Below, one piece after another: positions 43,897-48,629 of a stretch of 64,000 bases of DNA. The number at the start of each line of letters is the position of its first letter. The first letter of the stretch is position 1. The DNA comes from Chloroflexota bacterium (GTDB lineage: Bacteria > Chloroflexota > Dehalococcoidia > Lucifugimonadales > UBA3495). Below the pieces are notes generated by a model. The model had not been told where the DNA came from and did not search any database. It saw nothing but the letters and a program-made list of their open reading frames with translations. The stretch lies in contig JAPPMU010000042.1 in assembly GCA_028873965.1 (NCBI GenBank), forward strand, positions 66,383 to 130,382. The letters run 5' to 3'. Both the position numbers and the translations under genes were made by a program.

Positions 43897-44496
43897 TCAC
43901 CCGACCGAGATACCCAGCTCGGCCTGCATGTCGGCGACGGCCTGGTTGCGGGTCTTCCGCTGCCACTGGGGACGAGCATTGATGGGTTCGTTGATGATTT
44001 CCGGATCGATTTTCAGCGCGACGAACACCGGGCCCGGCTGGCCAAGGATCTCTTCGATCTGGCTGGCGAAATCCTCCAGGTTGTCGATGGCATAGGTGGC
44101 CGGGTAGCCGCAACCCTGGGCAACCACCTCGTACTCCATCCGCTCGGCGTTGGGAACCGGCTGGCCGCCGGTGGTGGCGTACACCCCGTTGTCCAGCATG
44201 AAGTGGTAGAGGTTGGACGGCGCCTTTTCCGCGATTGTGGGCAGGGCGCCCATGCCCATGAGCACGTCGCCTTCGGAGTCGAACAGCACCACGCGCTCGT
44301 CCGGGATAGCCAGGGCCAGGCCGAGAGCAAAGGAGGCGTGGCCGCCCATGGCCGGATCGCCCAGGGGCAGGTCGCGATCGGGCTGATCGCTCATTTCGAC
44401 CCAGAACCGGCCGCCGCGGCCGGGTATCACCACCGCGTCGCCGCGGTGCTTGTTGAAGATTTCCAGCATTTCCGCCGTTTTCATCATGATGGTCAC
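43897..44496 (-). CDS. TPP-dependent 2-oxoacid decarboxylase, beta subunit (sulfopyruvate/phosphonopyruvate decarboxylase-like)
   Basis: MGGHASFALGLALAIPDERVVLFDSEGDVLMGMGALPTIAEKAPSNLYHFMLDNGVYATTGGQPV. Confidence 0.8.
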   Translation of the reverse strand: MTIMMKTAEMLEIFNKHRGDAVVIPGRGGRFWVEMSDQPDRDLPLGDPAMGGHASFALGLALAIPDERVVLFDSEGDVLMGMGALPTIAEKAPSNLYHFMLDNGVYATTGGQPVPNAERMEYEVVAQGCGYPATYAIDNLEDFASQIEEILGQPGPVFVALKIDPEIINEPINARPQWQRKTRNQAVADMQAELGISVG

Positions 44497-44514: not shown

Positions 44515-45024
44515 TCAGCGGCTGACGTTGAAGCCGTGGTATTCGTCGCCGACGAGAACGGCGACGGGACGCTTGTTCCTTTGCGCCTCGTCAAAGGCGA
44601 TGGATATGCGGTCGGCGTCCTCATCGGACTCCACCAGGTAATAGTTGATGTTGAACGCGTGGAGGAAGCGTTCGGTATAAAAGGCCGCGGTGTCGTTGAT
44701 GACGCCGTGCCGCGTCCAGCCCCGGTATCCGACCATCATCACCACCGGCACGTTCATGCCCAGACCCCAACCGCGCAGCGAGTCGCCGGACTCCATCATC
44801 CCGGTATTCTGGATCAGGATGACCGGCTTCTTGCCGCCGGCGGCCAGGCCGGCCGCAGTGGAGAAGGCGTGCCCTTCGCGGCTTACCGGAACCAGGTCCA
44901 GGGTGGGTTCCTCGCTCATCAACACGTAGAGGAAGTTGGTCTCGCTGTCGGGGAGCCATACCACGTGGGTAGCGCCGTTCTTCTTCAACTCCGCCAGGAT
45001 GCGGGCGGGACTCAATTCGGCCAT
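44515..45024 (-). CDS. TPP-dependent 2-oxoacid decarboxylase, alpha subunit (sulfopyruvate/phosphonopyruvate decarboxylase-like)
   Basis: VPVSREGHAFSTAAGLAAGGKKPVILIQNTGMMESGDSLRGWGLGMNVPVVMMVGYRG. Confidence 0.8.
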   Translation of the reverse strand: MAELSPARILAELKKNGATHVVWLPDSETNFLYVLMSEEPTLDLVPVSREGHAFSTAAGLAAGGKKPVILIQNTGMMESGDSLRGWGLGMNVPVVMMVGYRGWTRHGVINDTAAFYTERFLHAFNINYYLVESDEDADRISIAFDEAQRNKRPVAVLVGDEYHGFNVSR

Positions 45025-45190: not shown

Positions 45191-46114
45191 TCAGTCGTCG
45201 GCTGCAACGGCCGGTTCGGCCAGGCGGTTGTCGATCAGGTCGGCACTGCACGCGGCGCCGTCGAGCAGACCCCAACGCACCATCCAGTGGTAGGTGTCTT
45301 CGACGATCTCGTCGGTGTAGGGCGTGTTGTAGGAGTAGCGCAGACGCGGGAGGTGAAAGTCCTCGGGCGTGATGCCGCCGAAACGGGCCACCACCGCGGC
45401 GAACCGCGGCTCGTCGATGAGATAGCGGAGGTACCGGCGCTTGTCCGTGTTGATCCGGTCCACCGCACTGGCGACGGCACGGTTGATCGCGGCGAAAGTG
45501 TCCTCATCCATGTTGTCGCTGGCGTTCTCGGCGCCGAGGTAATGGCCCTCGCAGACGGGCCGGCAACCCAGCTTTTCCGCCAGGGTAATCCAGGGTTCCA
45601 TGAGGGCGGCGGCCGCGACCTCCCCGTTCATGAGGGCTTCAAACCGGAACTGCGGGGAACCGTAATGGACCAGCTTGATTTTTTCTTCCGGCAAGTAACC
45701 TGACAGCAAGCGCAGCGCAACGTAGTGGGAACCGGCGTGGAACTGCACGGCTACCGGCTTGTTGCCCAAAGTGCCGGGGTAATAGTGGGGCGAGTCCGGG
45801 TGCACCAGGATGGCCTGAGTGGCGACTGCGGAACGGAGGGCGATGATGCGGGCGCCCTGTTTGCTTTCATAGGCCCGACGGACCTGACCTTCCTCTCAAG
45901 CGCGGTAGATCGACACCTGGGCATCCTCGAAAGCCACGTGGCCGAGGATCGGGTTCACGTCTTCCGGATTCTCGGTGGGCGTCACCTTGCCGCTGTTCAG
46001 GGCGGTGACGAATTCCATGTCAATGCCCTCGGCCTCGAAAAGGCCCTCATCCCGGGCAACCAGCCAGGGCAGGCTGAATACCACGCCGCTGATTTCGCTG
46101 ACTACTTTCTTCAT
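45191..46114 (-). CDS. candidate selenoprotein: NMT1/THI5-like binding protein, TGA at 45896..45898 read as Sec
   Basis: MKKVVSEISGVVFSLPWLVARDEGLFEAEGIDMEFV...HVAFEDAQVSIYRA-[TGA]-EEGQVRRAYESKQGARIIALRSAVATQAILVHPDSPHYYPGTLGNKPVAVQFHAGSHYVALRLLSGYLP...; both halves are one frame and one fold; track splits it into 45896..46162 and 45191..45805. Confidence 0.65.
45871..45885 (-). promoter_or_regulatory. putative bacterial SECIS-like hairpin
   Basis: TGA-GAGGAAGGUC-[AGGUCC-GUC-GGGCCU]: 6 bp stem with G-initial loop 17 nt after TGA. Confidence 0.5.
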
Positions 46115-46286
46115 TGCGGTTTCTCCTGAGCATGCTTCCAATCGCGCGGGCAAGTTTAGCAAAGTCGCATCGCAGCGTCCATTTGAGCGGCCGCAAGGGG
46201 TTACCCCATACGCCCTATGCTATACTCGCGCCAAACTGGACAGCCCGAAAATTGGGGCCGGAACCGGCCCTCTAGAGGTGTTAGCT

Positions 46287-47477
46287 ATGCATTGGGCTTC
46301 TGCGCTATCCCAACAGAACAGCCTGCGCGCCGCCCTTTCCGAATGCGCGGCGTCCATCCGCTCCAGCATGGGCGACACGGCGGCCGACCTGGCGGTAGTC
46401 TTCGCGTCGTCGGAGTATTCCTCGGATTATGCCAACCTTCCCGAACTGGTGGCCGAGCTGCTGGGGCATCAGGCGCTGGTGCTCGGCTGCTCCGGCGGCG
46501 GGATCATTGGCGGAGGCAACGAGGTTGAGCAGGAACCCGCGGTGTCCGTAACCGCCGCCAGCCTGCCCGGGGTCAACATTCACCCCATCCGGCTGGAAAG
46601 CGATAACCTTCCCAGCCTGGATGCGTCGCCGGACGAATGGCACACCGCCTTGGGCGTGGACCCGGGAGACCAGCCGCAGTTCGTGCTGCTGGCAGATCCA
46701 ATGTCGTTCCCCGCGCAGAACCTTTTGCTGGGAATGGATTACGCCTACCCCGCCGCCGCCAAGATCGGCGGGTTGGCCAGCGCGGCGCAGGGCGCCCGTC
46801 AAAACGGCCTGTTCCTGGGGAGGGACTATCACGATTCCGGTGCCGTCGGCGTGGCGTTGACGGGCAACATCGTCGTTGAAACGGTGGTGGCCCAGGGGTG
46901 CCGTCCCATTGGGTCGCCAATGCACATCACCCGCAGCGACCGCAACTTCCTCGTTGAGCTGGACGGGCAACCGCCGCTGAACGTGCTGCGCAACCTGTTC
47001 CAGGGCGCCGGCCAACGCGACCGCGACCTGATGCAGCACTCCCTGTTCCTGGGCGTGGTCATGGATGCGCTCATCGACGAGCCCCAGCAGGGCGATTTCC
47101 TGATACGCAACGTGATGGGAATGGACCAACGGAGCGGCGTGCTCGCCATCGGCGAAATGCTGAAGGAAGGTCAATTGGTCCAATTCCACCTGCGGGACGC
47201 GGAGACTTCGGCCGACGACCTGTCCGCGGTGTTGGAACGCTACGCGGTGGACAATCGGGAGAACCCGGCTCACGGGGCGCTGCTCTTTTCGTGCCTGGGC
47301 CGGGGCAAGTACCTGTACGGCCGGTCCAACCATGACACCGAGGTGTTCCACGAAAAGGTTGGCGCTGCGGTGCCGCTGGGCGGTTTCTTCTGCAACGGAG
47401 AAATCGGGCCGGTGAGCGGAACCACGTTCCTCCACGGATACACCAGCAGTTTCGGCATTTTCCGCCCACGCGCATAG
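46287..47477 (+). CDS. FIST N/C domain signal-transduction protein
   Basis: ADLAVVFASSEY...ALVLGCSGGGIIGGGNEVE...RNVMGMDQRSGVLAIGEMLKEGQLVQFHLRDAETSADDL...GALLFSCLGRGKYLYG. Confidence 0.85.
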   Translation: MHWASALSQQNSLRAALSECAASIRSSMGDTAADLAVVFASSEYSSDYANLPELVAELLGHQALVLGCSGGGIIGGGNEVEQEPAVSVTAASLPGVNIHPIRLESDNLPSLDASPDEWHTALGVDPGDQPQFVLLADPMSFPAQNLLLGMDYAYPAAAKIGGLASAAQGARQNGLFLGRDYHDSGAVGVALTGNIVVETVVAQGCRPIGSPMHITRSDRNFLVELDGQPPLNVLRNLFQGAGQRDRDLMQHSLFLGVVMDALIDEPQQGDFLIRNVMGMDQRSGVLAIGEMLKEGQLVQFHLRDAETSADDLSAVLERYAVDNRENPAHGALLFSCLGRGKYLYGRSNHDTEVFHEKVGAAVPLGGFFCNGEIGPVSGTTFLHGYTSSFGIFRPRA

Positions 47478-47489
47478 GAGATCAGGTCG

Positions 47490-48629
47490 ATGGCGGCAAC
47501 CGTCAAAGCCGGCATATCAGCTTCGCTGACCGGCCAGTTCGCTACGCAAGGACAGCAGGCGCTGGCCGGCCTGTCCGCGTGGGTCGATTACGTCAACGAT
47601 CAGGGCGGCCTCACCGTGGCCGGGGAAAAACGTCCGGTTACTCTGGTTAGCTATGACGATGGCAGCACGGCGGACGCGACGCGCCGAGCCACGGAACGGC
47701 TCATCACCGACGACAAGGTTGACCTGCTGTTCGGGCCGTATTCCGCGGGTCTCACTACGGCGGCCGCGGAAGTCGCCGAGACCCACGGCAGGGTGGTGTG
47801 GAACCACGGCGGCGCCGGCGACGCGCACTACGCCCGCGGGTTTCGCAAGGTGATCAGCGTCCTGACGCCGGCCGACCAATACTTGGTCGGGGCACCGCAG
47901 TTGGTCCGGCACGCCAACCCCGAGGCAAGCCGGCTGGTGATACTTCGCATCGACACGGGCGCGTTTGCCCGGCTGGTGGCGCGGGGAGCCGAAACGGCGG
48001 CTCACGAATTGGGTTTCACCACGGCGCTGGATCTGCGCTACCGGCCGACGCAGGTGAGTTTCACTGAAATTGCCCGCCACGTGGCTGAGCAGGAGCCGGA
48101 CCTCGTGGTAAGCGTCGGCCGCATTCGTCACGACCTGGGTACGGCCCGGGCGTTGGCCAGGCTGCCGAACCGGAACAACATCGGGCTGGCCGTGGTGATA
48201 GCCGCTCCCATAGGTGGATTTGAGGAGGCGCTGGGCGGTAGCGCGGACGGATTCGTCGGTCCCAGCCAATGGGAACCGGCCTTCAGCATCCCGACGCCGG
48301 ACGTGGGGCCGGATGCCGCCGAGGCACTGCGGATGCTGAACGATGCGGCCGAGAACGCAGGCGTGCCCATCGACTATCCGATGGCGCAAGCCATGGCGGC
48401 TGGTCTGGTCGCCGAGCGGTGCGTTGCCGTGGCAGGCGATCTGGACGACGACGCGCTCCTGGGCGTGGCGGTGGACGCAGACTTCACGACGTTCTACGGG
48501 CGCTTCAAGATTGACGAGTCCGGCCGCCAAATCGGCAGGTCGGTTGCGTTGATTCAGCGTCAGAACGGCCGCAAAGTGGTGGTATGGCCGCAGGAGTTGG
48601 CCGAAGGGGAGTTGCAATACCCGTTCTGA
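47490..48629 (+). CDS. LivJ/LivK-like periplasmic-binding-fold protein lacking signal peptide
   Basis: MAATVKAGISASLTGQFATQGQQALAGLSAWVDYVNDQGGL..., LLFGPYSAGLTTAAAEVAE; starts directly at the mature fold. Confidence 0.82.
   Translation: MAATVKAGISASLTGQFATQGQQALAGLSAWVDYVNDQGGLTVAGEKRPVTLVSYDDGSTADATRRATERLITDDKVDLLFGPYSAGLTTAAAEVAETHGRVVWNHGGAGDAHYARGFRKVISVLTPADQYLVGAPQLVRHANPEASRLVILRIDTGAFARLVARGAETAAHELGFTTALDLRYRPTQVSFTEIARHVAEQEPDLVVSVGRIRHDLGTARALARLPNRNNIGLAVVIAAPIGGFEEALGGSADGFVGPSQWEPAFSIPTPDVGPDAAEALRMLNDAAENAGVPIDYPMAQAMAAGLVAERCVAVAGDLDDDALLGVAVDADFTTFYGRFKIDESGRQIGRSVALIQRQNGRKVVVWPQELAEGELQYPF

Follow-up and report, generated by a model that had tools for sequence, protein, structure and literature searches.

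A putative selenocysteine-containing protein with a type 2 periplasmic-binding fold in deep-sea SAR202 bacteria and other Chloroflexota

The closest PDB folds to the protein described here are those of SsuA and TauA, which are transport proteins exported by means of signal peptides. The THI5/NMT1 pyrimidine synthase shares this fold and is cytosolic, and, to our knowledge, selenocysteine (Sec) is not known in THI5. Its catalytic residues are Lys62 and His66 (PMC10848271). DszB, the 2'-hydroxybiphenyl-2-sulfinate desulfinase (PDB 2DE2, 2DE3), represents the same binding-protein fold turned into a thiol-dependent enzyme. Its active-site residues are Cys27, His60, Arg70 and Gly73 (PMC12168087). 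As for Sec, a 2026 review tabulates 119 prokaryotic selenoprotein families and includes SaoB and SaoX as Sec-containing ABC substrate-binding proteins (PMC13188914).

The window (the whole stretch of DNA that was analysed, 64,000 nucleotides of contig JAPPMU010000042.1 from a Chloroflexota bacterium) contains a gene that can be compared with these systems. The family of its product is absent from the table of 119 families. The initial annotation had remarked that Sec in this fold would constitute an unusual selenoprotein family. Additionally, none of the NCBIfam selenoprotein models matches the protein, and those of SaoB and SaoX (NF040727 and NF040735) gave no match up to E = 1; the Sec motifs of the latter, CUxxT and UxP, differ from the RA-U-EEG found here. 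In the open literature, with subscription journals mostly outside the search, no paper was found joining SAR202 with a selenoprotein, or selenocysteine with NMT1 and a substrate-binding protein, and the text of the deep-Sep paper mentions neither Chloroflexi nor substrate-binding proteins.

Reading frame and decoding of the internal TGA

A standard ORF caller cuts the gene in two at a TGA. The two called ORFs, 45896..46162 and 45191..45805, nevertheless form a single minus-strand frame, and the earlier claim that only a TGA separates them proved exact in its coordinates: the TGA at 45896..45898 is the sole internal stop from start to end, and no other inactivating mutation is present. The split gene almost certainly encodes one selenocysteine-containing protein, with the following features:

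45191..46114, minus strand: selenoprotein gene (almost certain), 307 codons including one Sec codon, identified by its frame and translation and conserved over its full length in 22 aligned homologues
46112-46114, minus strand: likely ATG start; the terminal TGA is at 45191-45193
45896..45898, minus strand: TGA putatively read as Sec, residue 73; also TGA in 25 close relatives that span this codon, Cys or TGA in 34 of 34 aligned members
46123..46127, minus strand: AGGAG, resembling a ribosome-binding site, 8 nt before the ATG, as seen in the sequence
45871..45885, minus strand: SECIS-like hairpin AGGUCC-GUC-GGGCCU, with a 6 bp stem and a 3 nt loop starting with G, fold -7.6 kcal/mol

When GTDB genomes were scanned with the joined protein, 27 loci were recovered, every one of them labelled as SAR202, Dehalococcoidia or Chloroflexota. 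One of them (L032) stops short of codon 73, and 25 of the remaining 26 carry TGA there; the lone Cys belongs to a more distant relative (L034, 44% identical), which has TGC in the context NACEWG. More distant members were added by profile searches covering 393 genomes from the class and 400 from the phylum. The resulting alignment of 34 sequences has a mean column identity of 44%, and six of its columns are invariant when Sec is counted as Cys (G24, C/U73, R157, G183, A213 and A217), so that the whole protein has a single invariant Cys/Sec. Besides the window clade, TGA is found in four diverged genes (L054, L055, L056 and L082), while Cys occupies column 73 in the other 22 members, and a tree built with the Sec column and its neighbouring columns left out requires at least three changes between Sec and Cys. 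Plasmids of Mesorhizobium, a Geminicoccaceae bacterium, Nostoc and haloarchaea encode further homologues that retain the Cys, where they are annotated as "ABC transporter substrate-binding protein" or hypothetical; WP_199202450.1 of Mesorhizobium and WGF90899.1 of Geminicoccaceae are two natural Cys homologues. The Cys-containing homologues expected in the initial annotation were thus recovered, in the ACEWG context that it had given.

Some further observations concern individual members of the family. Residue 75 lies in C-E-W or C-H-W in most Cys members and in U-E-E or U-E-C in Sec members, and the Trp two residues after column 73 is missing wherever Sec stands for Cys. In the genome from which the window comes, a second family member, which contains Cys and belongs to the SSACHWAV subfamily (G000:C26:166622-167296), adjoins an LLM flavin monooxygenase gene. 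SAR202 bin22 has two copies with Sec (L030 and L020), whose identities to the window protein are 85% and 67%, that is, a paralogue in that genome. An ALOHA Dehalococcoidia copy (L035:4683-5024) shows an additional in-frame TGA eight codons 5' of the Sec codon, which may reflect either an assembly error or decay of the copy. In Nostoc sp. UHCC 0302 (L087:1402-4179), the Cys homologue, located upstream of an ABC transporter, is interrupted by an IS1380 transposase gene. No phage relative of the window protein was found.

The initial annotation had also called for a search for the sel genes, and all were present: the window's genome encodes a tRNA-Sec (66 bits, anticodon TCA, i.e., UCA), SelA (542 bits), SelB (357 bits) and SelD (378 bits), the last with its own in-frame TGA in the context CAG-U-AAK. 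As to co-occurrence, among 14 other genomes with family members, SelB and tRNA-Sec were present in all three tested ones with distant TGA homologues (G081, G023 and G025). SelB was present in four of the five tested genomes of close TGA members; SelB had no match in the 1.6 Mb assembly of one TGA-bearing relative (L028). Neither SelB nor tRNA-Sec was found in a genome with three homologues, all of them containing Cys (G114).

Bacterial SECIS elements are characterized by a downstream hairpin with a small apical loop containing a G (PMC1088965), and the window hairpin has such a loop and lies directly downstream of the TGA. It begins 10 nt past the TGA and its loop G is 16 nt past the UGA, where the initial annotation had placed it at about 17 nt. 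An Rfam scan of the window at gathering thresholds reported no SECIS, one tRNA being the only element found. The hairpin corresponds to codons 77-81 (CAG GTC CGT CGG GCC; degeneracies 2, 4, 6, 6 and 4), which are invariant, synonymous sites included, in 25 aligned sequences and constitute the gene's only run of invariant codons. Over the 232 scorable codons, 41% of the pairs differ synonymously on average and only 16 codons are invariant; a five-codon invariant run appeared in 41 of 200000 shuffles, and the conservation of the hairpin exceeds chance. In one diverged gene (L054, 48% protein identity), the element reads GTT CGT CGA GCC, two synonymous changes that are compensatory, as a C-G pair becomes U-A and the stem is kept. 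In the other three (L055, L056 and L082), the downstream elements, judged by folding only, fold differently from that of the window.

Two readings in which codon 73 is not Sec have to be weighed against these data. TGA is a stop in the standard code and the downstream ORF (45191..45805) has a possible GTG start, so the gene could be a pseudogene, the product of a sequencing error or a gene with an ordinary stop, its downstream part being dead or a separate gene. Nonetheless, 25 loci from independent assemblies have TGA at the same codon, so that a sequencing error is very unlikely, and dN/dS downstream of the TGA (0.03-0.17) resembles that of the 5' part, a strong purifying selection indicating that the reading frame is not dead. 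As the Cys of relatives, the conserved hairpin and the complete Sec machinery also speak against it, we regard this reading as extremely improbable. TGA is reassigned in some bacteria, and the second reading is a genome-wide reassignment, for example to Trp or Gly. However, the same gene terminates with TGA, which argues against a reassigned code, the column holds Cys in relatives rather than Trp or Gly, and the genome encodes a tRNA-Sec whose anticodon is TCA, leaving reassignment with a negligible likelihood. The Sec-for-Cys reading of the initial annotation, by contrast, withstood the three tests to which it was put (the sel genes, the Cys column, and inactivating mutations together with TGA conservation). 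The locus has the features expected of a selenoprotein gene, namely an in-frame TGA that falls in a Cys column of homologues and is conserved as TGA in at least two sequences, a hairpin and the Sec machinery. From the sequence, we consider it nearly assured that UGA codon 73 would be decoded as Sec by SelB and tRNA-Sec(UCA), directed by the short downstream hairpin.

Fold and likeness to known proteins

A first structure model, obtained with 22 mostly close sequences, had a pLDDT of about 40 around Sec; because of this poor quality, the AlphaFold2 model built from the 34-sequence alignment (mean pLDDT 91.4) was used. Its best matches among PDB folds are SsuA, TauA, THI5 and DszB, the structural match to SsuA (3ksj, E 2e-13, TM 0.71-0.75) indicating a type 2 periplasmic-binding fold. 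A PDB sequence search with the single protein returned nothing, although profiles did find matches. The initial description of the protein as NMT1/THI5-like can therefore be kept only in part: the fold is clearly the same, but the Pfam models NMT1 and NMT1_2 (PF09084 and PF13379) match remotely, below their gathering thresholds (14.9 vs 20.5 and 17.8 vs 24.7 bits). Similarly, the SsuA family TIGR01728 matches residues 103-212 of the read-through frame weakly, with 22 bits vs a cut-off of 163.5, and a sulfonate-binding SsuA was rejected for this low score and for the missing signal peptide.

The absence of a signal peptide, already pointed out in the initial annotation, is real and family-wide. 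In the model, strand 1 comprises residues 2-8, which leaves no room for such a peptide, and the N-terminus is the same throughout the family. Unlike SsuA and TauA, the protein shows neither the signal peptide nor the lipoprotein anchor by which ABC substrate-binding proteins are recognized, which favours an enzyme, or some other cytosolic protein, over a transporter binding protein. Judging from the model, the protein very likely resides in the cytosol, lacks a signal peptide and adopts the type 2 periplasmic-binding fold, similar to SsuA, THI5 and DszB. Residue 73 is modelled at the junction of a strand (69-73) and a helix (74-83). Sec73 replaces an otherwise invariant Cys at this junction and, by topology, would most likely be located in the ligand cleft.

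With respect to DszB, Foldseek gives an E of about 1e-11 with an overall identity of about 15%. DszB is also the best PDB sequence for a profile of the N-terminal half (E 0.001), positions 88-125 of the profile aligning with DszB 88-125. By consensus count, Sec is near profile position 74, and an ungapped extension places it, approximately, at DszB 73-74. It would thus fall near R70-x-G-G73, which we take to be the form of the DszB active-site motif, and not at the nucleophile Cys27, which is in another loop. Lys62 and His66 of THI5 lie in roughly the same part of the chain. With catalytic residues of both DszB and THI5 there, catalysis in this fold has used this region before, and these comparisons make a catalytic role of the window protein plausible.

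Genomic neighbourhood and possible function

Downstream of the gene, two subunit genes of a thiamine pyrophosphate (TPP) enzyme are found:

44515..45024, minus strand: TPP-enzyme N-terminal subunit, nearest to sulfopyruvate decarboxylase alpha (ComD-like), below the equivalog cut-off
43897..44496, minus strand: TPP-enzyme C-terminal subunit, nearest to phosphonopyruvate decarboxylase and sulfopyruvate decarboxylase beta (ComE-like), below the cut-offs

Adjacency of this pair to the gene is limited to the four nearest species (L009-L012). A conserved operon was considered as a functional clue and rejected, as those species alone retain the ComDE-like pair and the FIST, Peripla_BP_6, VOC and PEP_mutase neighbours, the surrounding genes being different in other relatives; consequently, the context names no substrate. 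In the window, the FIST-domain gene (46272-47477) adjoins a gene for a Peripla_BP_6 binding protein of the branched-chain amino acid/urea type (47490-48629), which begins at the fold and has no obvious signal peptide. LLM flavin monooxygenases, to which the alkanesulfonate and dibenzothiophene monooxygenases belong (PMC5395668), are encoded near several SAR202 loci of the family, a weak clue because SAR202 genomes hold many such genes. The haloarchaeal relative is the first in a run of three binding-fold genes without a permease. On two haloarchaeal plasmids (L086:7962-10824 and L088:7956-10806), the run consists of NMT1-type genes in tandem, all three signal-less. Cupin and VOC genes are located close by, but no permease gene, an arrangement that suggests a cytosolic enzyme set.

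The most likely role of the protein is that of an enzyme whose selenolate would act as a nucleophile on a small-molecule ligand, a proposal that draws on the invariance and position of the residue and that we hold with modest confidence. With SelB and tRNA-Sec(UCA) reading UGA codon 73 as Sec under the direction of the hairpin, the Sec73 selenolate would attack a ligand, possibly imported, in the cleft, the binding fold having turned catalyst much as in DszB and THI5. Cleavage of a C-S bond in an organosulfur compound is one specific possibility, but it is only a lead and, in itself, rather unlikely.

The main rival to this enzyme is the same selenoprotein working as a binder or sensor, in which the selenolate would coordinate a soft metal or metalloid, or covalently trap an electrophile, so that the cytosolic protein sequesters, delivers or reports its ligand. 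The fold is, after all, a ligand-binding fold, and other selenoproteins of the binding-protein kind, SaoB among them, are believed to coordinate a metal through their Sec (PMC13188914). Moreover, the Cys relatives of Geminicoccaceae and Nostoc adjoin an ABC transporter, which also fits a ligand-binding helper. Against this, a single invariant Cys/Sec is few for a metal site, the protein has no signal peptide, and no mercury or arsenic genes were recognized among the inspected neighbours; a binder or sensor is thus possible, if on the unlikely side. Since redox functions are presumed for the majority of known selenoproteins (PMC13188914), Sec73 might instead reduce a small substrate, alone or with a partner thiol, as a redox enzyme or thiol/selenol oxidoreductase. 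Nevertheless, the window clade has no CxxU, UxxC or similar resolving Cys close by, C-E-W-G is found in most Cys members where close Sec members have U-E-E-G, and the fold is not thioredoxin-like, all of which renders a redox role quite improbable. Overall, the explanation that we favour, although without great confidence, is a cytosolic, signal-less selenoenzyme built on a binding-protein fold with Sec73 as its nucleophile.

Implications for SAR202 and the family

As the ORF caller splits the gene at the TGA, databases probably hold truncated copies of it. The gene would add an unlisted family to the known selenium-dependent proteins, since none of those listed combines a fold of this type with Sec at such a position. 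It also indicates that SAR202 and related bacteria use selenium. There is about an even chance that it represents a new selenoenzyme family on a binding-protein fold, in which a Sec nucleophile in the ligand cleft would carry out non-thioredoxin chemistry (e.g., cleavage of C-S or other C-heteroatom bonds) in SAR202 and related Chloroflexota. In addition, it offers a testable way into an uncharacterised and widely spread Cys/Sec family that, in rhizobia and haloarchaea, is annotated as "ABC transporter substrate-binding protein".
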